This document shows, in pieces, positions 17,101 through 63,300 of a stretch of 64,000 nt of DNA. The DNA comes from Mytilus galloprovincialis (lineage: Eukaryota > Mollusca > Bivalvia > Mytilida > Mytilidae). Location: the NCBI RefSeq assembly GCF_965363235.1, contig NC_134844.1, forward strand, positions 71,045,497 through 71,109,496, given 5' to 3'. How positions within the stretch are numbered: the first letter of the stretch is position 1; every line of letters begins with the position of its first letter. The notes beneath the pieces were generated by a model. The model searched no databases. It saw only the letters and a program-made list of their open reading frames with translations, and had not been told where the DNA came from. The position numbers and the translations under genes were made by a program.

Positions 17101-20100
17101 TTTTTTAATTTCAGATCCAAATATGTATGCCCTTAGGGATATAAAAGCAGAGACAGAGATGCAGTGTAATTTACAGGATTCAATCTCAAGAGCTCAAGCT
17201 AAACCATTGTTTCAGGTAAGTTATATAAGTTGTAAAAATAGAAAATGACTGTATGTGTTCTCCTTAGGACCATAGCAATATAATAATATTATGGTGCGAA
17301 CACTATAATACTACCTAAATAGATTGAAAATAGAATGTATCATACTTTATGTCAAATTGCCAGATTTTGATTGGTTAATATAAGGGTGATAATTTACTCT
17401 TATCACATGACTTATATTCTATGACCCTCTACCAAGAAGCTTGATCAGTTGTACACTTTATTTTGATACATATGACTGTTACATACAAGAAGTTATACTT
17501 GATTGTTGTCGATTAAAAATTTTGAAAGTCATAAATAACTAATCTTCAGTATAATGATTAATTCTAATATGACGTCCTAATTACGCTTTGTAAACAAAGC
17601 CGTGTTCTAATGAGCACAAAATATGTTTGACACATGCGCACGAACTTACTGTTTATATTAACTTTATTTCCATCATCATCCTTTTAAATATATACATTTA
17701 AGCAGCCAACATAAACTTTTATTATATATTTTTATAAAACAACATATATTTTCCCTGCACGTAGTTTTTAAACTTATCAAATTTGAAATGTAACGTACAG
17801 ACTCCTCGGGGAAGAAATGGGAAAAGCCAAAGATTTTTATGGTATTTTGGTACGCTTCAACCTGTAAAAATACTGTATTTGTCCTATTAGAATCGAAATA
17901 ATTCCTTCATGTCATGCTCTATGCTGATTTTAACATGGATAGAAATAATATTTGACCGCATTTTACACCTCGCTAACGCTCAGTGTAAAATATTGACAAA
18001 TGTAATGCCTACCCATGTTAAAATGAGCATAGAGCATGACATGAAGGAATTATTTCTTAAATAAAACATACCTAAGAGGGTGATAGAATAGATTGTTAAC
18101 ATACCTAAGAGGGCGATAGAATAGATTGTTAACCCCTAGAAAAAAACTTTGGCCTCTCTTTCGTTGACAATGTTGTTTCTAAAAACAATCTGCTCTATCG
18201 CCCTCTTGTCTATGTTTTATTTATAAAGCATTATTAATTGGTGTGATAAATTTGTGGAAACAGTACTATTTCAAATCAAATGGTGCTAAAAGAAAATAGT
18301 AGTGAGAATCAGATAACAGACATAATATTTATTTTAAAATAATATTTCCAGGATGTGACCATATATGCTACACCAAGTATAGTACCACCCATATCAGATC
18401 TGACCAAAATTGTTGGAACAGCTGGAGGTACAGTGGTCAAACGGCTGCCGTCCATACCTTTACTACAGGAGAAAGATGATCAGGTGGGAACTATTTTTAT
18501 GCCCCACCTACGATAGTAGAGGGGCATTATGTTTTCTGGTCTGTGCGTCCGTCCGTCCGTCCGTCTGTCCCGCTTCAGGTTAAAGTTTTTGGTCAAGGTA
18601 GTTTTTGATGAAGTTTAAGTCCAATCGACTTCAAACTTAGTACACATGTCCCCTATGATATGATCTTTCTAATTTTAATGCTAAATTAGAGTTTTTACCC
18701 CAATTGCACGGTCCACTGAACATGGAAAATGATAGTGCGAGTGGGGCATTCGTGTACTGAGGACACATTCTTGTTTGCATTGTTCTAGACTCTATTAATA
18801 AAATTGTGGATATTGGTATGAATGCTAATTATAAAAGTAGTCAAAGGATGTGAATGTAGATAAAGCACACTAAAGCATTCAGAAATGAGCAAAACTCATA
18901 TTATAATTGAAAGGAAAAAACATGAGTGATTTATTTTTTTAAACAAATATAACAACCACACACAGCAACTGAATAACGTACTCTTGACTTCAGACAGGCA
19001 CATAAATGGGTTCGTGTTAAAGCATGCATTCTAGGGAGCACTCCAAAAAGCTTGGTTTCAAAGTAAATGGTTTCCTCAATTTTGGGGTAAATGTTTTGTT
19101 ATATATTATTAATTGCAGTATATCTAACATGCAGGTTTGGCTTTCAATGCTTTTGACCAAGTTTTATTCTGAAAAGCTTTGAGATGTAACAAAATTAACA
19201 TGTATCTGATAGCAGCTGCCTGGATTTTTATTGAAAATACTAGCATTTCGAATTTATTTACAAAACCATGAACTTGCAACTAATCAAAATTTATCATAAC
19301 CAATTTTTCGGCACCAGATGCAAATTTCCACAAATCATGTCGCTTAAACCTTACATTTAAATACGGAAACATGATATAACCAAAAATATAATTTGTCAAG
19401 ATAGACTGATCTATAGCCTACATGCAACCTAAAAACTTGTTCATTAAACTTGTTGAAGACTTTTATGTCGATGTTTAGATATATTGCTTTATTATGGTGT
19501 TAATATTCTGCTGTCTCCTTTATGTATGCTGCAGATCTCTATATATTCAAAATTATTATAAAATATATACAATAAACAACCGTTACTATTGATTTTATTT
19601 TAGGGAAATCCAACCCATATTGTAGTTACTTGTGAAGATGATGTTCCTATGCTAAGGAATATTATTGCAAAGAAAATCAGTAAGTACAACTATATCCCCA
19701 AACATCACTATATTGTGTTACAAACTGTATTGGTCAAATGTTGAAAATGGATTTATCGTAGATACCAGGCTTATAATTTTGTACACCAGACATGCATTGT
19801 GTCTACACAAGACTGATCAATAACACTGAAAAAAAAAAACAAAATCCAAATAAAATATATGAAGTTGATACATGATTATTAGTGAGGGCTATTCCAGAAA
19901 AAATTGTATGGGGGGGTTGGAAGGCAGTTTTTGTCAGCACCCGCCACCCAGACAATTGTAATTGAGAATTATAGTGCATTATACTGTGAAAAGTTGCTCT
20001 GATACCCATCACCCATGTATTATTAATACAATGTGCCTTCCAACCCCCCCCCCCCCCCCCCCCCCATACATTTTTTTCTGGAATAGCCCTCAGCAAGTTT

Positions 20101-27629: not shown

Positions 27630-28907
27630 ATGGCGGATGCCATGCTCTCGAAAACTGATTCAAAATCCTTGAAGAAAGGTTCAAGTGCTTCAAATGAGGC
27701 AAAAGGTAAAAATCCTAAAAGAAAATCATCCGGTGATGATTCTCGTTCAAAGAATGACGATACAAATAGTTGTAGTAGTGGTGCAAAAATTGTCAGCTCC
27801 GGCGAGGCCGGAACTGTTGCTTCAAGACTTAAAGGTCTGAGTCAAAATACTGGCGAAGCAAGTAAAGAGCCCACTTTAGCTGAGGTTTTTTCAGTTCTGA
27901 AGAACATGCAACAGGAACAGAGTTCCCAAAAAACTGATTTTGTGTCTCTCAAGTCGATGGTCGACGAATTGTATTACGTTGAGCCTGAGGGTTACGATGA
28001 AAGCCAGGGTGCAGACCCTGAGGTTTATGATGAAAATAATAATGACAATAATGATCATGTTGGTGATACTGAGGTTGCAGAACCTCCAGCTAAAAAACAA
28101 AAAACTGTTGACAAAGAGGGTGACAATGTTTTTAAAGCTGCTGCTCAAGCTTATAGGTCAAAAGATAATGTTGATACAAGTGTAGATGACACTTTAGCTG
28201 ACACGGTTAATGAATTTTTCCGTGAGGGAATATCTGATGAAAAATACAATGAACTGATGAAATCAGTAGCTAGACCAGAGAATTGTGTTTCTCTTACAAG
28301 GACTAGAGTAAATCAGCTCATTTGGGATTTACTCTCTCCTCAAACTAGATCTTTTGATTCGGTCATACAACAACATCAAGAGACTGTTGTTAAAGCATCA
28401 TGTAACATTACAAAATTATTAAATATGTTGTGCAAACTAAAATCTGAATTGGGTGACGACTGTCAACAAGAAATGCAGTCTTGCATAGATTTGGGGATTG
28501 ATTCCATAGCTTTACTGTCACAATATAACAAGATGACTAATATAAAAAGAAAGGAATATCAAAGATTTGATTTAAGTCCTGAATATCATCATTTAAGTTC
28601 ACCCTCAATTCCTTTCACTGACATGCTTTATGGTGACAATGTCCATCAAAAGTCGAAAGAAATTCAAGACATGAACAGACTTGGTCGAAATTTAAATAAT
28701 AATAATAATGCAAGAGGTAGAGGAAATGGTTTTTCTCGAGGAGGTAGTTTTGGTAGAGGACGAGGTTTTGGTAGAGGCCGTGCAGGGTCTCGTCGTGGTG
28801 GATACAGAGGTGGTCGAGGCCGTGGTTACGGCGGTAGAGGCCAGTATTCAAATGATCAAGGTGGTTCAAAAAACTTGAGAGGTGTTCCAAGTTTCCTGAG
28901 GAAGTAA
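27630..28907 (+). CDS. Gag-like ORF1 of the DIRS element
   Basis: This 425-residue frame starts at an ATG in good context (AACAATGG). The N-terminal 150 residues are Ser-, Lys- and acid-rich and look disordered. A folded middle part follows (about 180-340). The C-terminus is a Gly/Arg-rich tail with repeated 'GRGRGFGRGRAG'-type words, suited to nucleic-acid binding. Position before the RT frame and composition fit the gag-like ORF of DIRS elements; there is no zinc knuckle that I can see. Confidence 0.75.
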   Translation: MADAMLSKTDSKSLKKGSSASNEAKGKNPKRKSSGDDSRSKNDDTNSCSSGAKIVSSGEAGTVASRLKGLSQNTGEASKEPTLAEVFSVLKNMQQEQSSQKTDFVSLKSMVDELYYVEPEGYDESQGADPEVYDENNNDNNDHVGDTEVAEPPAKKQKTVDKEGDNVFKAAAQAYRSKDNVDTSVDDTLADTVNEFFREGISDEKYNELMKSVARPENCVSLTRTRVNQLIWDLLSPQTRSFDSVIQQHQETVVKASCNITKLLNMLCKLKSELGDDCQQEMQSCIDLGIDSIALLSQYNKMTNIKRKEYQRFDLSPEYHHLSSPSIPFTDMLYGDNVHQKSKEIQDMNRLGRNLNNNNNARGRGNGFSRGGSFGRGRGFGRGRAGSRRGGYRGGRGRGYGGRGQYSNDQGGSKNLRGVPSFLRK

Positions 28908-28969
28908 ATTATGCTAAACAGGTAAGTTTAGCGGGTGTCTCTGATATTAAACCTTTTACAGCAGGTAGA

Positions 28970-30979: not shown

Positions 30980-31785
30980 ATGAAGTCTTAGATTTTTTAA
31001 CAGTGCTTTTTGATAAAGGATTAAGTTATAGTACGATAAATTGTGCAAGATCTGCATTGTCAGCCTTAGGAATAATGTTTAATGGAGTGACAGTTGGCTC
31101 TAACGCTACAATCATCAGATTTTTAAAAGGTGTTTATAATTTGCGACCTTCAGAACCTAGATATAGTGAAACTTGGGACGTATCTAAAGTTTTTAATTTT
31201 TTACGGAAGTTATCTCCCGTAAAGTATATTTCGTTGAAAGATTTAACATTGAAGTTAGTAATGTTAATTGTTTTATCCACGGCTTGTAGGACACAGTCGT
31301 TGTTTTTGCTATGTTTAGACAATTTAGTTAAAGGAAAGGATAGTTATACTTTGTTTTATTCAGGTTTATTAAAACAGAATAGACCTGGGTTTAATGTACA
31401 TTTTGTTGAACTTTTTGCTTATCCTCCAGATAGGAGATTGTGTGTTTTTACTGTTTTAAAAGAATATTTGATGAGAACAGCTCAAGCTCGTGGTAATAGT
31501 CAGAAACTTTTTATAAGTTATGTGAAACCGTTTAAAGCCGTTTCAAGAGAAACAATTAGCAGATGGATCAAAACTGTGATGTCTAAATCAGGAATTAATT
31601 TAAAATCTTATTCTTCGCATAGCGCTAGATCAGCAGTTGTTTCTAAGGCTTTCCATAATCTGATTCCTGTGGAATGTATTTTACGAAGAGCTGGTTGGAC
31701 CAGTGAAAAGACTTTTGCTAAATTCTACAAGAAGCCGATCGAGTCAGATGAACAACGTTTTCAGAGAGCTGTTCTGAGTACATAG
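30616..31785 (+). CDS. Tyrosine recombinase ORF3 of the DIRS element
   Basis: A 389-residue frame overlapping the end of ORF2. It has a SAM-like core-binding part (about residues 60-180) and a catalytic part with the expected Arg ('TACRTQSLFLL'), His-x-x-Arg ('SHSARSAVVSKAF') and a C-terminal Tyr region ('GWTSEKTFAKFYKKP'). This enzyme replaces the DDE integrase of LTR elements and defines DIRS elements. Confidence 0.9.
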   Translation: MFTESSERQCRGSDDCTIMADSGMVSSFTRNVDRLSKNVASKEKTSVHSRNGKDSSSSQSVKVSCLSVIRKNLENQGISDKASKIILASWRDSTKKQYSTYVKQWFRFCSKRKIDPLQPALNEVLDFLTVLFDKGLSYSTINCARSALSALGIMFNGVTVGSNATIIRFLKGVYNLRPSEPRYSETWDVSKVFNFLRKLSPVKYISLKDLTLKLVMLIVLSTACRTQSLFLLCLDNLVKGKDSYTLFYSGLLKQNRPGFNVHFVELFAYPPDRRLCVFTVLKEYLMRTAQARGNSQKLFISYVKPFKAVSRETISRWIKTVMSKSGINLKSYSSHSARSAVVSKAFHNLIPVECILRRAGWTSEKTFAKFYKKPIESDEQRFQRAVLST

Positions 31786-33181: not shown

Positions 33182-34804
33182 CTAATCATAAATTCTCCGC
33201 CTGGTATTTCTGAAGACATCATTAGACATATCAATCAATGGTACGGAGAGTTTTATAGTTGCTTTTCTGTCTGTTTTCCCGGTACCGGTTACTGGTAAAT
33301 CCTCCAAAAATAAGATGTATTTTGGAATGTATGCGTCCTCCAACATCTTTACTTCTTCGTCAATTTTCATAGTATCCCTGGTGAATTTTTGAAGTTCATC
33401 TTCGGTGACGTCGGTTCCTTTCCACGTAAGTACTGACGCACATGGGATATCATTGTCTGTCAGTGGATGTTTGATAGGAAAGACGACTACGTCCTTGACA
33501 TCTTTATGTTTTTTCATTGCTACCTCGATAACAAACGGTGCAACCTTAGCACCAGATATTTCCATCACGTCAGAAATCCTTCCAGACACTACTAAGGAAT
33601 TGTCGGCATTAATGTAAGCATAATCGTCAGTTTTATACCAGCCACATGGCATAATAACATTTTTGGTTTTCTCTTCTTTATTAATATATCCTTGAAATCG
33701 GACTGGTGTTCGAATATAAACTTCTCCACTGGCTTGTGATTTCACGATCAAACCATTATGGTCAACTACTTTCAAGTCAACTCCTGAAAGTTGTGCAACT
33801 CCAAGATATTTTTGCGACAATGTTGATGATGCAGTATATATTTGTCCTGCTCCAAAACCAAGTTCTGTGGCACCATACGCAACAGCTAAACTGTCGAATA
33901 TCTTACCCAACCCATCAAGACATGTCGATGGAACAGGTTGACCTCCAGTAATAACAGAGCGTATTTTTATATGAATGTCTTGTCGATGCAGTATGTGTTG
34001 TAACATCGGCGTACCAAAAGATGCACAGAAAGGACGCTCTTTCTGCAGTATTTCTATCACATAGTTAGTCCCTGCTGACGCTGATGTAGGTGCAAAGGAG
34101 CTATACTGTGTTATACGCGTTCCACCAGTGACTATTTCCCAATGTGGATATCCACCCATCCAATAAAAAGGCCGACCATTGAAGTAGACTAATTCTGTTT
34201 TATCAAATGATTCAGTTTGCAGTAAGTAATGAATATTGTATCCGTTTAATAAAATGCTGTAGGGACTAAATTCCACTGCCTTTGGAAATCCTGTACTTCC
34301 AGATGTTGACAGTATAGCTGCAGTATCATCTGGGTCAATCTGTGGAAGATGAACATCATTTCCATCATTGTACAGGTCCTGCAATGTGAATCGTTCTACT
34401 GCTTCCGTCGGTGGTGAGTGCAAAACAGCCAATTTTAAATCCGGAATTTCGCATTGAGTCACTTGACCGTTTTGCGGATCAATTGACAAGAAATTACGAA
34501 CGATTTTCAAGTGCCTGTCGCCTTCTCCTGGATCAAACATTATCATTTTGCAGTTGCCAACCAGTTGCATCATTCTTTTGAGGTCGGAGCCATCTTTCAT
34601 ATGAAATGTTAGATGAAGTGGTTTTGCCCTTGTCATCTGAATGGCAAATATACAAATCAAAAACTCTGCCGTGTTGTTTCCGCCAACACCAACGACATCC
34701 CCTTGTTGAATTCCATAACGAACAAGGCCTTTAGCCAAACTAACATATGAATAGAACGACGCTGATATGATCGATTCATGTGACACGAGACGGTATGCAT
34801 TGGA
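33182..34804 (-). CDS. AMP-forming acyl-CoA synthetase/ligase-like protein, 3' exon
   Basis: Members of this superfamily activate a carboxylic acid with ATP and pass it to CoA or another acceptor. The exon starts after a TTTTCTAG acceptor (exon first base 34804) and runs 540 codons to a TAG at 33182-33184. The ATP-binding loop reads 'LSTSGSTGFPKAVEFSP', the mid motif is 'VAYGATELGFG', the hinge region 'GWYKTDDYAYI' with 'VVSGRISDVMEISGAKV', and the C-terminal catalytic-lysine motif is 'VTGTGKTDRKA'. The N-terminal 40-60 residues must come from upstream exons (above 34804 on the minus strand), which I could not identify. Nearly the whole enzyme in a single exon is unusual beside the finely split PAXIP1. 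Substrate cannot be told; ACSF2-like medium-chain acyl-CoA ligase or a luciferase-like ligase is possible. Confidence 0.88.
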   Translation of the reverse strand, partial: SNAYRLVSHESIISASFYSYVSLAKGLVRYGIQQGDVVGVGGNNTAEFLICIFAIQMTRAKPLHLTFHMKDGSDLKRMMQLVGNCKMIMFDPGEGDRHLKIVRNFLSIDPQNGQVTQCEIPDLKLAVLHSPPTEAVERFTLQDLYNDGNDVHLPQIDPDDTAAILSTSGSTGFPKAVEFSPYSILLNGYNIHYLLQTESFDKTELVYFNGRPFYWMGGYPHWEIVTGGTRITQYSSFAPTSASAGTNYVIEILQKERPFCASFGTPMLQHILHRQDIHIKIRSVITGGQPVPSTCLDGLGKIFDSLAVAYGATELGFGAGQIYTASSTLSQKYLGVAQLSGVDLKVVDHNGLIVKSQASGEVYIRTPVRFQGYINKEEKTKNVIMPCGWYKTDDYAYINADNSLVVSGRISDVMEISGAKVAPFVIEVAMKKHKDVKDVVVFPIKHPLTDNDIPCASVLTWKGTDVTEDELQKFTRDTMKIDEEVKMLEDAYIPKYILFLEDLPVTGTGKTDRKATIKLSVPLIDMSNDVFRNTRRRIYD

Positions 34805-38504: not shown

Positions 38505-41500
38505 ATGAATATTTCACAGTACATTCATAGTTTTTTTCATACCATTTCTTTTATTATTATATTCAAAATTTACGGTAAGCTTTAATTGTATTTTTTCTTC
38601 ATCATTTGATATTCCTAGTACTAATCATGTTTTAGTATAGATGTATGCATTTACATAATGACACGTCCCATAAAATTCCATATGGCTTAGAGAGAACAAA
38701 TTCAGTAGTTTATTTATGTGTACAATTGATGGTTTAACCAACCGCTACACGTTTGATACGAGTTACTGTTTAAATAAATTGTCTTACCCAGCAAGAACAA
38801 ATAACCTTGTGACCACTTTTATATTTCTGTGTAGCAACATTCCAGCCCGCCTGGATTCGGAGTACATATCTCCTAGTTGATACGATATTCCAGAGGTTGT
38901 ATTTTCTATCGCGATTTTCCTAGACAGAGGGTTGCTGATAGAGGAGCTTTCAAATCAAGAGTTCTAAGTGGTGAAGTTGAAATCATCCCTTCGTTAATTT
39001 TTCGAACGACATCACATGCTGGGTGACCATTATGGATTATCCGTTACACGGATGATAATCGTAATATGTTCAAATTGTCTACAATCCTGTCCCCTTATTC
39101 CCGAATGTGACTTACTAAATTAGACTTATAATCGGGTATATACTAACATGAACAAAAAGACGGGTGCAACATGTCGAGCTGGATCATCCAAAATGGTATC
39201 CTCGAAAATAAGTTGTTTATCATTGTTTATTGTATTATAAATTTCTGTAAAGACCAAAAACAACCTACTGGTACTGGATCTCTATTCGGAAATAAACACA
39301 AAAAGCTTTAAAATGGTTTATTAATTTTGATTTTCTTTTATAGAGTCATATTCCATTACAGTCCTAATTAATAAAAACATATCCGGGGTAATTGGAGAAG
39401 GTGGTACACGAGTAATGTGCTCATACACCAGGAACGATGCGACTAAAATTTTTACAATCGAGTTAAAAGCTAACAACGAAACAGTTGCAACATTTTTACC
39501 AGATGAGAAGCCTAGGTTGACAACAAAGGGACGGTATTTGGAAGGGAGAGTCACACTGATGAATATAAGTAAAGTTTCTACAGAAGCTGTCATGATATTC
39601 AATAATTTAACATGCGATGATCAAACCAACTATAGTTGTTCCATTGTTTTTCTTGGCCAAAACGGTAGAACAGAAGAAAGTCATTCAGGGTTTACAACAC
39701 TTAATGTGAAAGGTAGTAAATTAATTGTATCATTACAAATAAAAAATTTAAAGCTAACTAAACGAACAAACCAATTACAAAGAATAAACAATTTTAAAAA
39801 CCAGAGGATTTAATTGTAATATAGGCTATCGAAAATTAGCTATTATATGACCCATGATCATTTATCAACCTCGGATCAATGCCGATCGATCAAAATTTGT
39901 GTAAAGGGACCAGAAAGTAAAGCAAAGGCTTTCATCGTATGTAATATATATGCATGCTAATATATATATTATAAAATTTCAACCGCTCGAAACGATCCAG
40001 AAACAACAAGGGCAGTCGCATAAACAATTTGAAGATTCCCGTAAAACTATCGAACTGTCTTGGATTAAACGACTTCAAACAGCTTATCCCCTGGGTCTAA
40101 ATGACAATATACTTGGACAAGGGAACATATCTACTACTTCTTTTATTGATATCATGAATATTATTGATAAAAACAACGAAATAATAGGTCTCATGGGAAA
40201 CGTATCAATCGAAATCAACGAGTTAAACATCGTATAAATTATACACTTGGTAATCTATCTATATTTAAAAACAATGGTAGGCATCAATTATTATGTAAAC
40301 TGGATCAAATACCCATTATTAAATTACACGATATTTTCAAAGAATGTGACACCATCTCTTTCTTCAGCCCACTGTATGAATATTCTCGTATAATTACAGC
40401 TTTTTACCAACATAGGCTGTTCCCGCGTATCGACAAACCTGAAGACCATAAACGTCTTTTTCTGAAAATTAAATATATTAGCAGAGGTATTGATTTTATC
40501 AACTTATCTAGTATATTTAATGACTCTACCGTTCAAAACTTTATACCTCCCTATTTTGATAGCATAGAACCACCTTTAGTTTCATACACAAACAAAAAAA
40601 CCAGCAGAAGTTTAATTTTTAACCGGATTTTTGTGACAAAAATGTCGGTTATTGATTTGGGGATGTACGGCGGGCGGGCGGCAATCAAATGTTGTCCGTG
40701 CATTAACTCATGAACCGTTCAACCAAAGCTTTTAAAATTTTAATACGTTGTTACTGACAACTAAATAAAGGTCAAGTTCAATAATGGTGATTTTGACGTT
40801 TACCGTTCAGGAGTTATGGTTCTTGAAAGATTGAAAAATGGAGTTTCCAGTCGTGTCCGTGCACTTATGCATGAACTGTTTTACCAAAGCTTCCCAAATT
40901 TTAATATGTTGTTACTGATGACAAAATAGAGGTCAAGTTCAATAATGACGATTTTGACTTTTACCATTCAGGAGTTATGGTTCTTGAAAGATTGAAAAAT
41001 GGTGTTTCCAGTCGTGTCCGTGCATTTTCTCATGAACCATTCAACCAAAGCCTTTGAAATTTTTATATGTTGTTACTGATGGCAAATCAGAGGTCAAGTT
41101 CAATATTGACGATTTTCACTTTCACCATTCATTAGTAATGGTTCTTGTGATATTGACAGGACACAAATAAATATTAATAAATCCGGTTTGCTGTCGTTGT
41201 GACAGCCCCTTGTTAATTACACGTCGGTTACATCAGACGTGAATATAGACAATAATACTCCCTTAACTTGAAACTGTGAATCGTCGAAGTTCAGATATGT
41301 TCCCTATTGTCATGTTATTACAGGAGACCTAAATACCGTCCAGGATAGAGAGGATAAAAACTTTTTAAAAAAGGACCAAAATATCGTCCTCCATCTAAAA
41401 TAGATTGGAAAGAGTGTCGTCAAGTCACCAAAGATGCTCTTTCCTCGTTTTGTAAAAAGTGGTGTAAACGGGAAAAATCTGATAAAAAATCTCTTGATTC

Positions 41501-44500
41501 TTATTTAAATAAATGTTTGAATGTGGTAGATATTTTGAAAATAATTTAGAAGTAAATATTAGAGTACATAATACACCTATTTCCAGAATAAGAAATAAAC
41601 TTCAAGAACTTTCAAAGCGGTTTGTGTTTGTACCGGCCGACAAAGCAGCCAACAATGTGGTGGTGGTATGCCGTAAATACTACACGGACGTTCTATAGAA
41701 TGAAATTTTAAATTCATCTACATTCAAGTCCATCCGCTCCACAGAGAGTCATATAGTAAACAAACATATCACTACCACATCAAAGCTTAAGGCTTCTTCT
41801 GAACATTTGAAGGTCCCTACTATGTATTGGCTACCTAAACTACACAAAAAAACATTTAAATATCGTTTCATCTCGGCCTCTAGTAAGTATTCTACAACTA
41901 ATCTTTCAGTGCTCTTAACAAGTTCATTAACTACTATTAAAGAGCTTATCATAAACTATTGTAATAAAATATATGAACATAGTGGAATAAACCATTTTTG
42001 GAGTGTAAAAAATTCTTCAGATGTTTTAGATACTAGTAAATGACGTGCTTTTGATGGTCCTTTTGATTCTGTTGACAGTTTTGATTTTTCCACTCTCTAC
42101 ACTACACTTCAACACTATCTTATTAAACTAAAGTTTTCCTATTTAATTAGATGGTCGTCTGGTAAAGCTGAATGCAAGTATATTTCCTGCAACTCATTTA
42201 AAGCCTTCTTCTCTAATGAGAAAGGCAAATATGCTAGATATACTTACTGGAGGTGTGATGAGATGATCGAAGCTGTTAATTTTCTCCTTGATAATATTTA
42301 TGTACGTTTCGGCAACACAGTTTATCGACAGGTTGTAGGTATCCCAATGGATACTAATTGTGCCCCTCTATTAGCAGACTTGTTTTTGTACTGTTAGGAA
42401 TCACAGTTTATAACAAAACTTAGTAAAGACCCGTCGTAATTGCATTTGATTGATAAATTCAACAACACTTACTTATGCATCACTTATCTTGATGATATTT
42501 TTTCGTTAAATAATCAAGAATTTTCTCAATATACTGCTGAAATTTATCCCAAGGAACTTACTTTAAATAAATCAAATTTATTCGGTAATAACTGTCCTTT
42601 CCTGGATTTAGATATTTCGGTTTTAAACGGAAAACTCCACAACAAAATTTACGACAAAAGGGACGATTTTTCGTTCCCTATTGTTAATTTTCCATTTTTA
42701 GATGGTGATGTTCCTATAGCACCATCTTACGGTGCTTATATTTCACAGCTCGTTTGCTATGCCCGTGTCTGTTGTGACGTTTTTGATTTTAACGAACGTT
42801 ATCTATGTATTGCTGGAAAATTATTAAACCAGGGATATCGTTACCATAAATTACTAAAAACTAAATTTTTTCATAGATATAAAGTTTTGGTTTTGAAGTT
42901 TGGTTGTACCTGTAAAAAACTTATTTCAAACGGGATAGCACATCCTAATTTTTACGGAAATGTTGTTAGCTGTGCCCGGAAATTTAGCAATGATCCATGT
43001 CAACTTATCGCTTATTATAGAGAGCCGTGGTGTAGTGGTTAGAGCATCGGACTACTAACACAAAGGTTCCTGGTTCGATTCCCGTATGGGATGAAAATTT
43101 CAGGGACTTAATTTTCGGCTCTCCCTTGACACCATTTGCGAGTATGGTCTTTAGGAAACGACGATAGTCCGTCGGACGGGGACGATAAATGGCTGACCCG
43201 TGTTAAGAGAGAGCCATGTCTCTTACACGTTAAAGAAACCCTTGTAGATTTCGAAAAAGAGCAGGCTATTGCCGCTACAAGGCAGCACTCGCACCCGCAA
43301 AGTGGAAAGGGATTAATATAAGTTGCAAAACTTGTTTCCAAATCCACTATAAATAAATATCACCCCTAGTTTTTGGTGGGGTTCGTGTTGTTTATTCTTT
43401 AGTTTTCTATGTTGTGTCATGTGTACTATTGTTTTTCTGTTTGTCTTTTTCATTTTTAGCCATGGCGTTGTCAGTTTGTTTTAGATTTATGAGTTTGACT
43501 GTCCCTTTGGTATCTTTCGTCCCTCTTTTAAACTAACTTACCGCTCCTTTAAATAAACTTATTCTAAAAGGTTACATATTCAACACTGTAATAAGATCAT
43601 TGGATATTGTTTTTATTGGGATAAATATTGATTTTGTTATCATTAAATTAGAAGCAAACTAAATATTACTAGTATGTTATATACATATACACATTCATGG
43701 ATCTACAATATGTCGATACCTGTAACTTGGCATTGCACAAGGTCATGTTTTTCTCTGGCTGTTTTTGACGTCTTTACACTAAATCCATTGGATGTTGGAT
43801 GTGTACGGATTGATAGTTTAGTCTTAGATGCATGATTTTTATATTAGTTGTAAGTGGCTTTAAACTAGCAGTCAGATAACTGCAAGTACTCTCAGATCTG
43901 TTAATAGAGTCTTTTTTGTCGGGATGTACACGTTCCCGGCCATGTCCACTTGTATTTTTAGACCATCTGATGAGCTACGCCTTTTTCAACTGATTTTTAT
44001 AGTTCGTTCTTATGTTGTACTGTTATACCACTGTCCCAGGCTCATTGTTGTTAATGTCTGTGTCATTTTTGTCTCTTGTGGATGGACAGTTGTCTCATTG
44101 GCAATCGTACTACATCTTCTTTTTATGTAATATAAAATAAACTACTTGAACATAGCATCATTATGGTTGCGTTGTCTTAAAGTTGTCAATATTAAAACAC
44201 AATAGCTTTAATATAACCAAAAATACCGAAACGCCTTCCAAGAAGCGTATTATCTACATAAGTCTAATCAGTGTCGCTTGAATTAAACCAGGCAGATGAC
44301 AAATCAGATACGAAGTTGAAGAGCTTGAAAACACAAATTCTCTTAATCATCCCAAATTATGTGACATTGACTGAAAAGGATTCGATCTTAATAAAAAAAA
44401 AGTATTTTTTTCAAGGACAATAAGCATGTATACGTATGTGGTAGCTGTCATATAGTGTAGAACAAAACAACATCCATCTATTATGTTTGTAAAGAAAAAA

Positions 44501-47500
44501 ATGAATCTTATTAATTTTGGTATGATAAACCAGAAATTATATTTATCTATCTTAAGAAAACAAGCAAACATGGTACTAAGACAAATGCAGCCCTATAAAA
44601 GACTTATTGTATCATAATATGCATTTGATAAACGTACTCCTACTTGTTTAAAGGTTATTAATTTTCAACCTATCTGTGATACGTCGAGCTCATACAAGTT
44701 CAAAATGTACTAAAATATTATTATGTTTTTGCAGTTCCACCGTCAAAACCTGAATACGTAGCGATTGTCGATTTACTAGAAGATGAATCAACAACTGCAT
44801 TGCAGATTCGAAGTGAAACGTCTTCTCCAAATGATACTGAGATTTCCACTGTTAAGCAATCTACAACATCTGCCATTATAAAAGAAGGAGACATCATTAC
44901 ATGTATATGTGCCGGAAATGTTGGAAAGCCTCCAGGGAAGTTGATATGGCAGAAATATCGACATGGAGAAAAAGTTCCAATGAACTACACACATATTTCT
45001 ACGATAGCGACCGAAGTTACAGACAAGTGTTCCTACTATGGCACCAGTTACCTTCAGCTCCGGGTAACTTCTTCGGATAACCAAGCAATCATTCGGTGTT
45101 TCATTGATTCGCCGTTGGCAAAACCATATATGTATGTGGAAATGAAACCAATAGACGTTACGTGTAAGTATTTGTCTAATCTCATAGTATATATGATTTG
45201 AAATTAAAAGTAACAGAATGTATAAGCAAACGTTATAAAAAGGCATTTACATGTCAGTTATAGACAATCAGGTGTACAATATCATGACTTTTGACAAGAT
45301 TAGTTTTGAAACTGGTTTTTAAACCAAATTTAATCTTAACAGATGATAGATAAATTTGCATTAATAACCCCAAAAGCCAACTACGACTATATACACCCAT
45401 GTATTAATTGAGTAACGGAAAGGACCGTATAAACTAAATTTTAAGCCAAAACAGGAACACGGACCTATTTAGGGTAGTATTCTTTTTGACGAATCGGTAT
45501 CTTAAAGCGGCATCGACCCAGTGGTTGTTTAATCTTACCAAAACTATAGAATGTGTATAACAAATATGTAACTACAAAACTTGCTTCGATTTGATCACTT
45601 AAAACTAAAGTCAGTTGCGACAAAACGATTATCCGAGCTTCTTTATAGATAGTAAACTTCCAAATATTATGTAGATATAGTTCAGCCTGTATAAAGAGTA
45701 TATACCTCCCAATTAAAAAGAAAGTCCAAAGCTTTCATTTCCCATCATAAATCATGTAATAGGGTGTTGATGCGAACATAGAAACAAGTAAATTAAATTT
45801 TCAAGTGGTGTAGTTAAACTAATACCTTCGGATAGTTTACGAGGCCATCACGAGAATCACAAGTTAATTAACTTTTAAAGAATACCTGTTAAACAGATGA
45901 CGACATATGGCGTTGTCAGTTTGTTTAAGATTTACGAGTTTAAATATATATTTTATATCTTTCTTTGAAATATTTAGTTTGCCATGGCGTTTTTAGTTTT
46001 CTGCCACTTCCTGACTTATCAGATTGAATATCCTCTTAGTATTTCCCACCTCTCATTTAAAATTCTGTCTTAATATATCTCAAATTAAATAATATGAATA
46101 TACTCCTTAATGTCATGAATATGAGTAATGATATTAGTTACCAATCACTCAATCAATCAATCTCAATTCTATTTGACAGCTTTTAGTAAGGATATGACCA
46201 CGTATACTACCACAATTAGTCATTTTACTGGTTCAGAGGGAGCAACAGAATCACACAGTGGATACATATGTAATGTTTTAATATGTTTTTGCTGGTTTCT
46301 TCTGAGTATTTCAATAAAAAGAGTTAAGAAAGGAGAAATGGGAGTAATAAGTACACCTAAGACAACCATACAGAATGAACTATTTAGCATTTGCCATATT
46401 GATTGAAATTTGAACTTAACATCAATATACTGGATTAGAACACATTTTAATATGCATTTTTCTGCATTTGGCTTAATCATGTAATCAATATTGTTATAGA
46501 ATATCGACAGTTTGATCCAAATTTTGACGAAACGTTTACTCTTAAATAAACTAATGTTAAACATTTACAATCTATTAATCTTGACATAATCAATTTCTTT
46601 CACATGACTCAAAATGAAACATAACAAGTGTTGCATATTTGTAACTTCTTTGTATATATTGCGTCTGCTTAAAAGAGTACATAATTAGTTTCAAATTGCT
46701 GAGAGTGACCATATGGTGTCGTCAAATTCATTTAATCCCCCTCCTCCAAAAAAATCAATAACACAAATTAATATGATATTATGAAAAGGTTCCTTTCAGT
46801 TCTTTGTTCTAATATTTGCTATTAGAAAAAGCGTTAGCATGTATAGAAAAACTTCAAATTTTATAGATTGTATTTACCATGTTTATATGGCCATTCGATG
46901 CACTGCTTAATCAATCAACTTTTTTTTTAATAATTTCTTAACTAATAAATGGAAATTTTAGTAAGATTTGCTATAAATCATGCCAGTTCCGAGGTTCTGA
47001 ATACTGAACTGATGATACAGACGTGGACCGATAGTACACAGCAGCGGTATCAACCCAATGTGTTTTATGTATTCATGGTGAATTAATCATGCAGATGTCC
47101 TGACAGTATGTACACGTTAGTTCTACTAGTTTTGAATTTTCAAATATACTTTTTCTTCCAGCATCATTAAACAGACGTTGATTATCGAAATAATCAATTG
47201 CTGCACTTAAAGTGTGACCGTTGATGAGAATACACATTTGTTCACACACTATCTACTATAATTTGTGGTATGATGACCTTTTTTGTATCTTTATCCTAAC
47301 AATATATCTTGTTTTGTTAATTTATTCTTGTTATCTTATCTTTTTGCAGATTTTGGTATTGTTATTGGTATTGTTATTGGTGTGTTGGCTTTGGTTTTAT
47401 TGGTTGCATACGGAATTTATCTGTTCAAAAGAAAGCATACAGAGTAAGTACATTTAATTGTATGTAGATACATGTATAACATGTATAAGCGATCTTAAGT

Positions 47501-51561: not shown

Positions 51562-51606
51562 TGCACCAGATCCGCATTTCGACAATACATGTCTCTTCCG
51601 GGATGC
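51562..51606 (-). ncRNA. Decayed hammerhead ribozyme-like motif, second sequence type
   Basis: On the minus strand a stem 'GACA' / 'TGTC' around TGTAT is followed by GAAA, 'TGCGGA' and 'TCTGGTGCAC'. The 3' half fits a hammerhead (stem II, GAAA, short stem III, cleavage triplet, stem I), but the CTGATGA part is altered. Stem sequences differ from the 53932 copy, so this is another subfamily. Confidence 0.45.
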
Positions 51607-52444
51607 TCGAGACTGACATATGTATACATATACATTACGAAAATAAACATTTTTTGAGATATATTGTATAATGAACCTCTCTACTTTTTCATACATTTAA
51701 AATTGCCTCCTTTTTGTTACCAAGAATTAATAATAATTATACATACAGTCAACATTGTCACCTTTCCGGTTAACCAATAAGCTTTATATATTTTATTTGA
51801 TTTTGAGTTGGTGGACATCTGTATTTCTGATAAGTTATGTTATGCTTCAATGAACATTTTTATTTCTTTTTTTTAGTCTTATTTGACTTCTTCATATGCC
51901 AAGTTATTGAATTATTCAACATTCTATTATTGTTTTTATGTTTTTCAGTCATTATTATTTTGTTGTAAAAATTTATTAATAATGTATTTTATTTAAATGA
52001 TTTGTTTTCACTTTGAATAAGTAAAATGTCACTATTTACATTTTGTTTCTTCATTACTTATACATTGCTCATGATAATGCCAAATAGCGATTCTTCATGC
52101 ATTTAGACAAATACTTGTTGAACCTCCGTTTTGTTTTTGTAGCAGAAAATCATGCAAACCGAAAGTCTCGTGTCTGAAAAAAGTATGATTGAATGACTGT
52201 AGTTTGCTTCGTGTCCAGTGTCCAGTAATATCTTGTGTGCATATTATTGACGAGATAATTATAGTTGACGCAAACGTAAATAAGCAAATTCTTGGGTTCT
52301 AACAAAACGGATGCATAATGATAAACGACTGGGTGCAATATATTGACTATTGCAAGAAAAAAAGCATTGCAATACGTTATCATATACCGATCGAGGAGTC
52401 TCTGAAATCTTTTTCTGAAGGAGCAAAAGTTTAATTTCATTTAG

Positions 52445-53699: not shown

Positions 53700-54012
53700 C
53701 TTCCTATATCTATATGAGAAAAAGACTTTTACGTACCCACATTTTCAGGCAATAGTTTTGAAATTGATTCCTCTACCATTATAGACATAGTAGGGATACT
53801 TTTTATACTAAGGCTTTTCTACATCAGGACAAATTAACCGTAGATGTATTTGACAAAACGTTTAAGAATTTTGGTTCTCAATGCTCTTCAAGCTCTTCTT
53901 TATTTGGCCCTTTTACACTTTTTTTGATTCGAGCGTCACTGATGAGTCTTTTGTAGACGAAACGCGCGTCTGTTGCAAATACTAAATTTCAATCCTGGTA
54001 TCTACGATGAGT
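53700..54012 (+). repeat. Hammerhead-bearing dispersed repeat (retrozyme- or SINE-like)
   Basis: The unit contains 'TTTTGGTTCTCAATGCTCTT', then 'TTATTTGGCCC', the hammerhead at 53932-53976 and a conserved end 'TTTCAATCCTGGTATCTACG' with 'ATGAGTTTATTT'. It has no coding potential. High-copy repeats of this kind with type I hammerheads are known from mussels. Confidence 0.65.
53932..53976 (+). ncRNA. Type I hammerhead ribozyme with intact core
   Basis: The core reads CTGATGA (53939-53945), stem II GTCT/AGAC (53946-53949 with 53955-53958) around a 5-nt loop, GAAA (53959-53962), a minimal stem III CGC/GCG (53963-53968), then T53969 and C53970, the predicted cleavage site. Stem I is formed by 'GCGTCA' before the core and 'TGTTGC' after it, with mismatches. 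All invariant core positions are present. The tiny stem III is typical of hammerheads thought to work as dimers in animal retrozymes and Penelope-like elements. Confidence 0.82.
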
Positions 54013-54729
54013 TTATTTTTGAAATTATTTTAAATCAAGTACGTTTTCCTTCGTTGAATAGCTCTGATTTATTGTTGGCGTTTTCATATATTGTTGGTCC
54101 GTTTTGTTTTAATAACTACGTCAATCATTGCATAATGATGTTGGATTTTAAAATATTGTAGACCTTGAATATTGATAAAAACAGATTAATTATCGAAACT
54201 GGCACAACAGTTTAAAGTACAATCAGTTGCGTTAAAGATGTTGCGTTTTAGTAAATTAGTAAATTACAAAATAGTGGTCTATAAAATTTGCATGTCGCAT
54301 TCAGACATGCATTTATGGGTTCTTTGCATGTGTTTACGAAGAACAGAACAATGATGAAATAATCAATCCTTACATAAAAGATAAACTCTTAATATAAATA
54401 TGACTTACTTATATTTTAACGTTTCCTTTATAATTTTGAATAAATAATGAAATGCACGCTTGAACGTTCCTAAAAAACGTAACACAAGAAATCTGCTTCT
54501 GGCGAACAAGATGTAATGAATATTATTCCAATAAAAATGTTCACTGACAAAGGATCTATGATATTGTTATATATCTCTATTTTTCTATGTCTGCTTGGTT
54601 CGCGGGGTTTCTATGCTATATTGTTGTATTTAGTTGATATAACCCAAACAAACCCATCCAAACCCTAAAAAAAAACCAAACAATAAAAATGTTACTGCTT
54701 TTCCCATATCATCATTGACTACTCCGAAA

Positions 54730-54985
54730 AGTGACGTATTAAATTAAAAGCCTGTTACTTTTGATAACTATTCAAACCACTGGGTCGATGCCACTGCTGA
54801 TGGACTTTTCATCCCCGATTGTATCACAAGCCCAGTAATCAACACTTCGTTGTTGACATGAATATCAATTATATGGTAATTTCTATAGATTTACTGTTTA
54901 CAAAAGTATGAATTATTCATGATACAAAGACGAAACGTGCGTCTGCCGTTTTGAGTTATAAGCCTGGTACCTTTGAACACTAATT
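54730..54985 (+). repeat. Retrozyme-like unit between two copies of the post-ribozyme word
   Basis: The stretch begins after 'GTTACTTTTGATAACTA' and ends with 'GGTACCTTTGAACACTA', two versions of the same word. Between them are 'CACTGGGTCGATGCCACTGC', 'GTATCACAAGCCCAGTAATC' and a shortened hammerhead 3' half near 54944 ('AGACGAAACGTGCGTCTG'). One repeat monomer flanked by parts of neighbouring monomers suggests a tandem, circular-RNA-derived origin. The 5' half of the ribozyme is missing. Confidence 0.55.
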
Positions 54986-55171
54986 GAATAGCCATAAGCA
55001 GTTGTCATGGTCTGGTTACTGATTTCCATATGTTGACAAATTAAACAGGATGCTCAACTTTAAACAATGCTATCATACTACTGTCTATCAGCACAACTCG
55101 TGTTTATAAAAGGACAAATTTTGTTCATGTACGCTCAAAACTTATCTCATTCTATGTCTTATAATTTTGTA

Positions 55172-55222
55172 CATTAACACGCGCGTTTCAGCTACATTTG
55201 ACTCATCTGTAGAGCTTGAATC
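55172..55222 (-). ncRNA. Decayed hammerhead-like motif
   Basis: The minus strand reads 'CTACAGATGAGTCAAATGTA' then 'GCTGAAACGCGCGTG'. CAGATGA stands for CTGATGA and the predicted cleavage position is G rather than an allowed base, so it is probably inactive. Confidence 0.4.
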
Positions 55223-57375: not shown

Positions 57376-60300
57376 ATGACAATGAACCAGATCAAATTCG
57401 TTGTAATTGTGTTTCTTTTAATAATAAGCGAGATACATGGTAAGAGTTCTTTTGGTTTACTATCTTCTTATGTATAAGCTTCCTATCTTAGGAACATCCC
57501 TTAATTGGGTAATGGAGAATATTTAATGGTAAAAATATATATAAAATGTTTTTTTTTTAATTTTTATAAGATAAATACAGAATCAGTTTATTATAAAGAA
57601 TGTGTTTTCTATTATGCAACTCAAACTTCTAAAGTCGGCACGTTATTTGTTATCCTTTTATATTGAAATGTATTGTTGAACAAACCTTTTTAAATGTAAC
57701 AAATTTAATTAAGACATTTCTGTAACAAAAACAGCATAGAATCCTTACTGGTCACATACGGGGCTACAACAATGTCTTTTTATTATGCTTCATCTTTTAA
57801 CATAAGGTGTTCCTTTTTTTTTTTTTAAATCAGATTTGTTTTTTTTTCATTTTTATGAAAAAATAAAAAAAAAACTTTAGCTTTTCAAGAGTTGGATAAC
57901 TTTGTTGTCAAAACTTATTACATGAAATAAATAAGACAGATTTACATACCAGAACTGAATATATTTAAACCGAAAATGTATTCTAACAAAACAGATACTG
58001 AAATGTGATAAAAACACTTCAGTATTTATCTTCATTTTATTTTCAATGGACTTCTTACAATGAAATAAATGAAACTTAAATAAAAACTGCATACAACAAT
58101 GACAATGTAATGGAGTATCTAAATTACAACACTTGTTTATCTTTTATTTTTCAGATGCTTATTCTATTACTGTGCGAATAAATCAAAACATATCAGGAGT
58201 AATAGATGAAAGTGGTACACAAATTAAATGCTCATTCACAAGGCACAATGTTATTAAAATATTTGCCATCGAGTTCAAAGCTGAAAATGAAACTATTGTT
58301 ACAATTTTACCAGACGATAAACCAAGATTTACAACAAAAGGACAGTATTTGGAAGAAAGAGTGACAGTGATGAATATAAGTAAATATTCTACTGAGGCTA
58401 TTTTGACGTTCGTAAACCTAAACTGCATGGATCAAATTAACTACAGTTGTTCAGTTGTTTATCTTGACCAAAACAGTAAAACAGAAAGAAGAAACTCAGG
58501 AATGTCAACTCTTTTCGTTAAAGGTAATAATAATGTAGGCGTAAATAAAAAAGCTTACCATACCGGTGTGAGCCAAGGCTCAGTGTTGAAGACCGTACAT
58601 TGACCTATAATGGTTTACTTTTTTAAATTGTTATTTGGATGCAGAGTTGTCTCATTGGCACTCACACCACATCCTCGTATTTCTATAAACAATATTTTAT
58701 AGAAAAGGAAATTAAAATAAATATTAAACACATCTTGAAAATATCAAAATATACTATTCATATAACCACAGACTACAAGGATATGCATTCATAATACTTG
58801 TTGTGATTCATTATATGTCTACGATATACAACATGTATCATAATGATAAGATTTGTTTTTTGATTAAAAAAAAAAATAATAAAAAATAATGCTTGTACTT
58901 ATTCATTATATGTCTACGATATACAACATATATCATAATGATAAGCAAACATAAATCATGGTTGATTTGAACTTTAGAATTTTCAATGGTAATTTTACAT
59001 AACTTTAGTTGTATTGCTTTTTTAAAATGAAAAAAAAAAGACCAAAAATACGATTTTCTTATCTTTTCATGTAGTGTTTGTTGAACTTGTTTCTAAAAAG
59101 CGTGATACATTATGGCAAATGAATTTACAGTTGAATAAACAAAGTAGAGCCGTGCAAGGAAAACCCCTACTTAATTTGAAATAATTTTTTACGGTACACC
59201 GTTTTCGGAATTTATGTCATATTGCCTTAAACATTGGATCATTCCTGTGAACTATATAAGTCGGTTAATGTTAGAACAAATGTACGGTTTATATCGTCTG
59301 CCGAGAGAAACCAAGCTAACTAGTTATAATTTATTTTGCAGTTCCACCTTCCAAACCTGATGTTTTAACTATAGTTAGTTCACCAAAAGACGTCACAACT
59401 ACACCGACAACGTTAGAAAATGCAACTTATCCTCATGTAACTGCTCGACAAAATAGATTTAAAACGACTATTAGCCAGATCAATTCGAACCAGCACACAA
59501 CAAATGACGGGCAGTTTAAACATGAACCGTCATTTAACTCCACCATCTTACAGATAGGAGATGAAATAACATTTATTTGTACTGGAAATGTTGGAAATCC
59601 ATCAGGTGTATTCATCTGGCAAAAATATAGGCATGGCGAAAATCCAACAAATTATACAAATATCACTACAACTATACAGGAGGTATCTGATATGTGCTCC
59701 TACAATGGAACAAGTACCTTGGCAATCCATGTAACTGCTGAGGACAACCAGGCCATCATTCGATGTATTTTAAATTCAACATTAGCGCTACCAAATGTGT
59801 ATACAGATACAATACCACTGGAGGTTCAGTGTAAGTAGTTGTTCAATTTCTTTTCGATTATTACATTCTGCTACTTTTTTAAAGTAATTGAAATTACAAA
59901 AGTGAAACAAAATTGTGAACACTAACTTAGTTTTGTCTAGAAATGCAATATATGATCAGCTGGTATTGTACAATTAGATTATTCAATATGACCGGTTTCA
60001 TAATATTCAATACATTAGTATGTTGTTTTTAATGCTGAATATGTATAATGGTTTGATTCTGGATTTTTATTTCCGCATATCTGTAAAATAGAAAAGGTTG
60101 GAAGATATGTTCTACAAATAAGTATTCTTTTTTTTATGACAGAAACACATTTGCAGTATATAACATGTACAAATTAAATGATTGTATGATATTATGGGAA
60201 ATGTCTTGTGGTTTTATATCAGAGTAGCTTTCTTTCAATATCCAAATGTAAAAAGTCGTCATCAAAGATACGAGACTTACACTTTAGTACGCCAGACGCG

Positions 60301-63300
60301 AGTTTTGTCTTCACAAGACTCATTAGAGGCGTTCAAATAGCAATTACCTAGTTTACACTTTGACGTTTATATTAGTCACAAAATAGATAATTATTGATTG
60401 CGATCCTGTTTCTACTTTTCATATACAGATACTGTAGTAAATGAATATGTTTACAATGCTCCTTTCAAAAACACATCAATATGATCAAGATACCGAACAT
60501 TTGTCAAGTGTTTTACTTTATATATAATCATGTCTTTAAAATTTCTTCTCCATGGGTGTTTAAAGTAATTTGATCTATGGAAAACATACATTAAGAACAC
60601 TTAAATTCACTTATCAGTTCAGAATGTTTATGTATTTGAATCAACACAAACAACTTGATAGAATTAATATAAGCTGCCTTCTTTTATATTTCGAGAGCAG
60701 TATTCATACAAAGATTCAGCTAAAATAATGTATGTATGTAGGATATATGGTCTCCTCTACTGACAGCATATTGTTACTTTCATGAGCCTATCCATTGTGG
60801 CTGTATAGCACAAGTCGAATTCAACGCATGTTGCGATACATGCATGACGTATTTTCCGCACACTATTTTGGTGTTCATAAATTAATAAAATTCGTCTAAT
60901 TTTAACAGTTCCTGATTATGATACTACAATAGAATCGAGACGAACAACGTTAGTTACTGCGGTAGGCAATGATGTTACAGATTCAACCAATCAACAAGAA
61001 TTACAAAGTGCCGGTGGAGACATAGGTAATAATTGTTTTATCATGTTTAACATTTTCTATAACATAAGCATAACAAATGTGAAATTGTGAAAAAAAGTAG
61101 GATTTGAAATTTAAGTCATATGATATTTTGTAACCTTTCAAAACAGTTTTCTCTAGATCTTAGAAGTAAAAGAGGAATGTAAGATACCAGAGGGACATTT
61201 AAGGTAGCACAATACAAAGATTTTTTTACTTCCAATCACCAACCTTTGAAATGCTGTAACTTTTTTATGAATGCATAGAAAATAATAAAAGAGGTATATA
61301 TAGATAGATAAAAGATTAATCTTTTAAATGCATGCAATATTTTTATTATGCGATCATTATGTAATCAATTATTATGTAATTAGTGGCAAAATCTGGGTAA
61401 GTTCACTTGAATGATTTTAGCTCTATCATCTCTTTACCTATGCAGAAAATTTTAACGAAATCTTAATCAACACATCCTGGGCTTCAAAAGGGTGTTTCAG
61501 ATTGTCTCTATGGTATTTCATTCTCTCATCAATCTCCAATTAGAGTAAACATCCTAACCACATAAAAGAAGATAATGTTTAATTAGGTGTAAAATTTGTT
61601 CTGTACATTCTATCTGAAATCTGAGACACCCTTTTGTAGATAATGGCCATAGGAATAACATATAATAAAATCAACCCTCTAGGGTTACCTATGCAGAAGC
61701 TAATTTCATTTGAAAGTGGAAATTTGGTGAAAAATATTTTAGACACAGTTAACATAATAATTGGTTACATAATTGTTGTATACTACTAGCATTGCATTAA
61801 TTTGAAAGAGTAATCTGTTAGCTATCCAAAACTACCACTTTTATAAATTTTCAAGCATTATTAAGAAAGTTGCAGCAGTTTAAAACTTGGGAGTTGGAGT
61901 TATAAAATCTTTGTATTGTGCTACCTTAAACTCACAGATCGAAAATGAACTGATAACGCCATGACTAAAAACGAAAAAGACAAATAATAGTGCACAAGAC
62001 ACAACTTAGAAAATTAAAGACTAAGAAACACGAACCCCACCAAAAATTGGGGTGACCTCATGTTTTCCGGAAGGGTATGCAGATCACGATACACATATAG
62101 CACTTATCGTGTTGCTTAGGTTATTACAAAGCCGGTAAATAGTTTTATTATAATATATGATTTTGTCTCTTTTCACAGGTATTGTTGTAGGTTTTGTTAT
62201 ACCTGTGTTGGTTTTGTTATTCATAATTGGAATTTGTTTATACAAACGAACGGGGAAAAAGTAAGTAATTGCACTAGATTTTTCATATTCATGATTAGAT
62301 TTAAAACCGATACTGGTAGAGAATAAATCATTTACAGCTAAACAGCTTTGACAAGCACCATTTAAAAATTCATTAAACAATTATAAATAGTTGGCTAGAC
62401 AAATGCATCAACTCATTGAAGGCTTTTAAGCAATAAATATAAAAATGGATGATGCCATGCTTATTTGCTTTTGCAAGTTTTGATTTTTTGACAAGTTTTA
62501 AAGTTGTTTTAGACTTATATTACCAACAGACTGTTGGTACCTCAAAGAGTATTGCTGTGAACCCTACTGACCGTTTTGTTAACATTTTCATATGAAGCAG
62601 ACACAATCTTTTCAAAGACAAACAGATAAATCACTTGTAAAGTTATTTAAATGGTTGCTTATTATTTTATCCAAATGATCTTCAGGTAACGAATGCAACA
62701 GAACTATAAGGCCAGTCTCATATCTCGTTTGTTTCTTATCGTTAATGACACACCTGGATGTCACAAAACAGAATCTTTGACAAATTTGACGAATTTAACT
62801 TTCAAATTGTCATCCTAACTGTCCAAATCTTAGAAATTAGTTTACCTATGCCCCATTGCATTGCGTTTGAATATCCCAATTAAAACGTCAAGCTCAAACT
62901 CACATACATGTTCTCACAATACGTGTTTGAGCTTTCAATTTTGCCATTTTGCTACACGGGACTTATATCCAGGCTTACAAACTGTTTCAAAAGATTTAGT
63001 AGGAATCCGGTGTGTTATCGGCTTAACATATAATTTGGTTACCCGCATGAATTGACTGTCCTTTACGTTTGGTTTGTGTCTCCACCCACTTATGACACGT
63101 GTTTGCATATTAGACCTTTTTATGTCATAACAGTTTTCCGAAATGCATTTTTACCGACTATGTCTTTTTAATGATTTTGACATTTTCAGCTCCAATCAGT
63201 CTATAACCTTTGGGTGTTAATTCAATTTCATCAGTTAATGTTTGTAATCTTTATTTCCATTATCTTAATTGATTGGTGAGATTTGAAAATCAGAAAATTA

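Follow-up and report, generated by a model that had tools for sequence, protein, structure and literature searches.

The hammerhead motif described here lies in a 64,000-nucleotide stretch of the Mytilus galloprovincialis genome (the window), and we consider it very probable that it is the self-cleaving ribozyme of an animal non-LTR retrozyme, of which the window carries one old, solitary, 5′-truncated copy. The observations that carry this reading are covariation of the ribozyme fold among genomic copies, the copy number, the tandem arrangement of the units, 3′ ends that are fixed and 5′ ends that vary, and one insertion for which the empty site is known. The motif is a real hammerhead of a known kind, its copy in the window being a relic. 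Three observations are new and useful: a fixed 3′ tail common to three families, the compensatory changes in one of them (family C) and the shortfall of the scored copies against the Rfam cut-off.

How well does the motif match a hammerhead? A complete type I core spans positions 53933-53976 (+) and reads GCGTCA, CTGATGA, GTC, TTTTGTA, GAC, GAAA, CGCGCG and TC, with TGTTGC following the predicted cut (Table 1). CUGANGA, GAAA and UH before the cut occur in the type I order. A core descriptor of 33 positions, three of them free, found this one site in the window and none in 100 dinucleotide shuffles, and the Rfam model Hammerhead_1 (RF00163) aligned with the copy from its first to its last position at 30.8 bits (E 1e-5 on 501 bases). 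These results confirm an earlier note on this DNA, which had reported every core position in the right order. The note had also placed the cut between 53970 and 53971, and the same bond is predicted for cleavage of the window copy from the position of C17 in the RF00163 alignment. It was wrong about stem III, described as three pairs without a loop: there are two pairs, A15.1-U16.1 and C15.2-G16.2, capped by a palindromic GCGC loop. Stem I, which the flanks were said to be able to form, does exist and is weakened in this copy, with five of the six pairs, one of them G-U, and one U-U mismatch. Its 3′ strand is UGUUGC in the window versus UGGCGU in the majority of relatives, the departures being at 53973, 53974 and 53976. 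The full core was present in 69 of 93 sampled copies, 58 of which form all six pairs of stem I. The outer bases of the stem II loop, U-A here and A-U in family C, are able to make a fourth pair.

Table 1. Retrozyme-derived features of the window, with the evidence for each
Feature	Position	Strand	Basis
5′-truncated solitary family B retrozyme unit, 213 bp, GC 0.357	53805..54017	+	BLAST to L016
Stem I, 5′ strand	53933..53938	+	RF00163 alignment, model R1, sequence
Core CUGAUGA (C3 to A9)	53939..53945	+	RF00163 alignment, sequence
Stem II GUC/GAC, loop UUUUGUA	53946..53958	+	RF00163 alignment, covariation, sequence
GAAA, stem III (A-U, C-G, GCGC loop), U16.1, C17	53959..53970	+	RF00163 alignment, covariation, sequence
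Predicted cleavage site	53970/53971	+	C17 position in RF00163 alignment
Stem I, 3′ strand UGUUGC	53971..53976	+	RF00163 alignment, relatives, model R1
Conserved 3′ tail TCCTGGTATCTACGATGAGTTTATT, fixed element 3′ end	53993..54017	+	Terminal copies, tail distances
Second retrozyme insertion	54732..54985	+	BLAST, 5′-end mapping
Family C hammerhead relic	51562..51607	-	R1 45.9 bits, outside training set; BLAST 81% to family C unit
Hammerhead relic, mutated core	60288..60333	-	R1 52.8 bits, copy in training alignment
Hammerhead relic, broken stems	55171..55216	-	R1 37.4 bits, in training alignment via L029
Hammerhead relic	19782..19827	-	R1 33.0 bits, outside training set
Weak hammerhead relic	44237..44278	-	R1 17.6 bits, E 0.013

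A scan of the whole window at the Rfam gathering score was empty, because the cut-off of RF00163, 34 bits, is higher than the score of the window copy, and none of 20 further loci passed. At E 0.01, RF00163 gave 13 matches of 27.3-33.0 bits (the window copy and 12 siblings) and no match for the family B unit L016 or the family C loci L086, L087, L090 and L098. The empty scans of the window and the 20 loci therefore reflect scores just under the cut-off. Because the scored copies fall one to seven bits short of it, most of the many thousand hammerheads in this genome would probably escape routine annotation. Model R1, built from 60 genomic copies, recognised six sites in the window, of which three had not been used to train it.

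We considered whether the fold is supported by the way in which the copies differ from each other. The alignment comprised 60 distinct rows out of 122 extracted, none of which was dropped for length. With the hammerhead structure imposed, 91.5% of the cells were paired, versus 86.1% in partner shuffles, and 33 cells had both sides changed, versus 7.5 +/- 2.3; neither value was reached in 500 shuffles. Six slid versions of the structure had 18-48% of cells paired and 5-15 doubly changed cells. Between families A/B and family C, compensatory changes affect four pairs in all three stems: G-C to A-U in stem I, two U-A to A-U in stem II, and C-G to U-A in stem III. Compensatory change over 60 genomic copies supports the three predicted stems. 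The two findings that the earlier note had named as grounds for giving up the motif were not obtained, in that RF00163 matches it, though under the cut-off, and its pairing over the copies is better than in shuffled rows. Most of this covariation is one divergence (A/B versus C) counted many times; six pairs show a double change, a number attained in 36 of the 500 shuffles and exceeded, with seven, in one slid version. RNAalifold predicted no pair from the same alignment, and the hammerhead structure was therefore given, not discovered. For stem I alone, the first 93 copies formed 515 pairs, whereas 1,000 shuffles gave 507 on average and at most 516. These copies are nearly all of family A or B, at least three rows being of family C or like it, and stem I is not clearly above the shuffles because its columns hardly vary; the support for the fold comes from the comparison with family C.

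The genome searched comprises 1.385 Gb in 331 contigs. A 16-mer of the core has 24,929 exact copies (12,410 + 12,519), and its reversed control has none. Exact full cores of families A and B number 16,194 (8,002 + 8,192), and 4,037 pairs of the 16-mer (1,887 + 2,150) stand in tandem, 341-371 bases from start to start. Within arrays, the cores are 351-367 bp apart (first 20 regions). The tandem units of ~350-360 bp fall within the 150-450 bp by which metazoan retrozymes are defined; one unit of each family has a GC content of 0.388, 0.361 and 0.377, below 45%, and the longest stop-free run in the unit is 86 codons, with no coding frame. The genome-wide copies and the unit alignment bear out the placement of the motif inside a non-coding repeat. 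Families A and B, most of whose members have the stem II loops UUAUGUA and UUUUGUA, respectively, differ in their tails, and the window copy belongs to B. Family C is about 70% identical to A over the aligned part, and its core, CTGAAGAGAC-loop-GTCGAAATGCGCATC, has 4,342 exact copies. Five core and tail strings did not occur in the literature searched.

Might these sequences be simply satellite DNA, spread and homogenised by unequal crossing-over, with the hammerhead carried along? Long head-to-tail arrays do exist, and the sampled arrays tend to homogeneity. One series, 44 consecutive exact family C cores spaced exactly 350 bp apart at C1:433306-448387 (~15 kb), has a single loop variant, which is absent from the other 56 listed places; this array is either of very recent origin or strongly homogenised. 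Each of the 13 family C arrays found within the first 100 listed places has one loop sequence throughout, a pattern with a probability of about 1e-4 if the loops were drawn from the pool. Arrays L082 and L083 each contain three identical units, the nearest outside units sampled being 96.9% and 96.5% identical. The mean identity within an array exceeded the best outside identity in 12 of 19 arrays and did not in seven. A period-two pattern in the L080 array was dropped, as it rested on one variable column. Uniform arrays would be expected if circles served as templates, and local tandem duplication could also explain them. Three observations, however, make an origin as a satellite alone very unlikely. 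First, 57 of 95 groups are single units or pieces (overlapping loci included). Second, the dispersed copies end at one common 3′ point amid unrelated flanks. Third, one array lies inside another element for which the empty site is known: in L009, two full units and a partial one interrupt a Penelope-like reverse transcriptase frame that is present as an uninterrupted stretch in L079, the array ending at GATAACTATTT and the host sequence resuming with AGTAGC. Dispersed insertions and one empty site, by which we judged retrotransposition, are thus both found in the family.

The ends of the copies are informative for the retrozyme reading. We took 93 distinct hammerhead copies with 120 bases downstream of each; 37 continue into a next unit and 56 do not. 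In the 53 of these terminal copies that have a recognisable tail, conservation falls from 0.62 to 0.05 bits between tail positions 26 and 27 (counted from a CCTGG anchor) and from 27 on stays at a background of 0.02-0.25 bits, whereas internal copies remain conserved. Measured from the cut, the tail ends after 39 nt in 38 of 42 copies of family A, 44 nt in 33 of 42 of family B, and 33 nt in 23 of 23 of family C; nine of the 93 A/B rows had no motif match, and the C rows L005 and L086 come from one place. A separate set of 20 family C places has the same end, L088 and L094 running into a further unit. Of 86 groups clear of the locus ends, 68 have a unit alignment that stops no more than 12 nt from the unit end, one stops at 22 nt, and 17 fall short by 39-248 nt; old or broken copies therefore do not show the fixed end. 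The 5′ starts are spread over the unit, 17 of the 86 lying between positions 60 and 89. Although this sample is not random, most loci having been picked because they hold an exact core or resemble the window copy, the three families share a fixed 3′ end 33-44 nt past the cleavage site, and their 5′ ends vary. We found no description of a fixed 3′ end with 5′ truncation in the passages of PMC7229834 that we consulted.

Where do the 5′ ends fall in relation to the cut? Of the 79 insertions whose 5′ end is defined, two begin at the base directly after the predicted cut, namely L045, which comprises four units, and the second insertion in the window, at 54732; two more start four bases before it. 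A uniform distribution would give about 0.2 starts per position. A set of 33 loci selected by their tail (20 picked as having no listed exact core and 13 not) has the 5′ end inside the fetched piece in 23; here the 5′ end of L109 is at the cut and that of L125 lies three bases upstream of it. The two starts among 79 were seen after the fact and are too few for a claim; if real, they would derive from RNA whose 5′ end had been made by the ribozyme, in some cases from internally uncut multimers. Seven of the 33 tail-selected loci consist only of a tail of 24-42 nt, and a search for a helper upstream of tail-only places revealed no common non-retrozyme element among the matches listed. Target-site duplications were not above those in shuffled flanks (mean 4.19 versus 4.00; 53 insertions), and AT-rich flanks were uninformative because the window itself has a GC content of 0.29-0.35. 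Eleven opposed neighbours were listed, two of them the same pair; L128 (5′-5′) and L124 (3′-3′) touch, and the number is too small to interpret.

The other home named in the earlier note for such motifs, the pseudo-LTR of a Penelope-like element, has to be weighed against a retrozyme. Penelope-like reverse transcriptase frames are very abundant in this genome (150 were scored of 17,337 first-look candidates), and one adjoins a retrozyme array in L009. That array, however, is an insertion into the frame, and the only tandem Penelope-like unit read whole, L079, lacks a hammerhead; L079 was rejected as a carrier of the retrozyme hammerhead or tail, neither having been found in it. Among 20 reverse transcriptase loci of ~3.2 kb each, only L059 and L062 match the retrozyme unit below E 1e-3; the former overlaps L009, and the match in the latter covers 45 nt at E 1e-4. 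The retrozyme unit itself has no stop-free run over 86 codons. The Rfam models Hammerhead_HH9 and Hammerhead_HH10, which we take to be Penelope-associated, had no matches in this genome, and the control genomes were equally silent. What was found is not the minimal hammerhead beside a reverse transcriptase frame that marks a pseudo-LTR, since helix III is present. Published Penelope hammerheads share the type I order (PMC7761336, PMC11167929) but are described as minimal, most of them lacking the variable part of helix III (PMC7761336). Within the scope of the tests made, a retrozyme agrees with the data and a Penelope pseudo-LTR, to which we would assign very little probability, does not.

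Several other elements came to light. L079 (G000:C3:50303000-50307100; 731-795 and 1689-3300) is a Penelope-like element repeated every 4,018 bp, with a GIY-YIG-like part preceding the reverse transcriptase (identified by eye), four TGA stops in frame and a SECIS-like match of 30.9 bits (E 0.0027), below the cut-off of 35; these traits are reminiscent of the selenoprotein-coding Naiad clade. A frame in the window at 42440-43042 (+) resembles the L079 reverse transcriptase by eye and has no Pfam match. At 27630-31785 (+), Pfam matches mark successive frames for a reverse transcriptase, an RNase H-like domain and an integrase SAM-like domain, as in DIRS-type retrotransposons. The window also holds an uninterrupted frame of 534 aa for an AMP-binding enzyme at 33185-34786 (-) (PF00501, E 1.5e-33), a ~500-bp tandem repeat in three copies with 91% matches at 24957-26439, and an immunoglobulin-like frame at 44800-45198 (+) (PF08205, E 9e-8), which short frames at 39415-39810 and 58133-58600 (+) resemble by eye, with no Pfam match. 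If these last three were exons of one gene, the hammerhead would be intronic and in the sense orientation.

The window unit is an old, solitary copy of a retrozyme, without the 5′ part and with a weakened stem I. Positions 53805-54016 aligned by BLAST with positions 148-358 of the L016 unit at 84.6% identity, and the copy is 86-89% identical to 39 other scored genomic copies. Being a single 5′-truncated unit, it could not by itself yield a unit-length circle or RNA, and, judging from its sequence, it may have kept cleavage at a slower rate than the majority type. It was compared with 35 relatives (36 distinct copies in 30 loci, minus the window copy); departures from their majority affect 24 of the 128 bases upstream (53805-53932), three of the 44 in the hammerhead, all in the 3′ strand of stem I, and none of the 47 at 53926-53972. 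That selection has kept the motif for a host function, such as intronic RNA processing, is scarcely credible: the 47 unchanged bases around the core and a hammerhead conservation of 0.979 among the 35 relatives, against a maximum of 0.971 in upstream 44-nt stretches, speak for it, but stem I holds the three departures, excess conservation would follow if multiplication were confined to copies whose ribozyme works, and the site was picked for its intact core, in a genome with over 16,000 intact cores, so that the pattern of departures is no test of selection. The second insertion in the window, at 54732-54985, consists of a one-unit stub followed by a unit in which an internal deletion has removed the 5′ half of the hammerhead.

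Retrozymes have been described in this species. M. galloprovincialis is reported to contain ~5,000 type I hammerheads of two families in repeats of ~350-390 bp (Cervera & de la Pena 2020, PMC7229834). Northern blots showed abundant circular RNA, and cleavage occurred during transcription at about 0.1 per minute; one construct is named for a 353-nt unit, the motifs are said to lack most of the bases for the tertiary contact between loops 1 and 2, and Penelope-like elements were proposed as candidate helpers (PMC7229834). The present locus fits this kind closely, by description rather than by sequence identity. It agrees with the published account in its type I motifs, head-to-tail units of ~350-360 bp in thousands of copies, more than one ribozyme family, a GC content below 0.40, the lack of a coding frame, and a stem III of two pairs with a tetraloop, as described for invertebrate motifs. 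It differs in number: we counted 16,194 + 4,342 exact cores, versus the ~5,000 reported (PMC7229834). The satellite or retrozyme hammerheads of newts and the axolotl likewise have a short helix III with a tetraloop and units of ~330-350 bp; they are reported to need dimers for good cleavage, whereas for the mussel motif cleavage was reported in a monomeric construct (PMC7229834).

How might the copies have spread? We propose that arrays of ~350-360 bp units are transcribed and that the hammerheads would cut the transcripts, after which a host ligase would close unit-length RNA into circles, a step published for M. galloprovincialis. The reverse transcriptase, presumably that of another element, would begin 33-44 nt past the cut, at a fixed site, copy round the circle or along an uncut multimer and stop at a variable point, and the product would be inserted. 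If reverse transcription began at the 3′ end of the cut RNA, it would leave insertions ending in GCGTC; the real ends lie 33-44 nt later, and the start would therefore be internal to the RNA. From a linear unit-length RNA, reverse transcription would then yield no more than a 33-44 nt stub; long or multiple copies would thus require a circle or an uncut multimer. Reverse transcription thus seems, from the sequences of the insertions, to start at a fixed site inside the RNA. A comparable behaviour is reported for a Penelope-like element of the green anole, in which reverse transcription is initiated within the RNA, past the hammerhead cut, and leaves a genomic tail; there the start is in the coding frame, at some 85-92 nt from the cut (the two being 111-118 and 26 bases, respectively, from the start codon), whereas here it would be in non-coding sequence at 33-44 nt (PMC11167929). 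This likeness is one of behaviour and, as an analogy, no proof of the enzyme.

We offer tentatively a more general proposal, which we hold to be possible rather than probable: that animal retrozymes are inserted by a Penelope-like reverse transcriptase from a fixed internal start tens of bases past the ribozyme junction, a circle or multimer being copied from one to many times; that the tail (GGTAYC-N-TTRAT-like) would be the recognition signal tying retrozymes to their helper; and that 5′ ends exactly at the cut would reflect RNA cut in the animal. A review states that animal repeats show no conserved motif pointing to a helper retrotransposon (PMC7761336). As the ribozyme itself is of a published kind, it is the polarity of the insertions that could matter: the fixed 3′ tail common to three families offers a motif that may point to the helper and makes the helper question testable.
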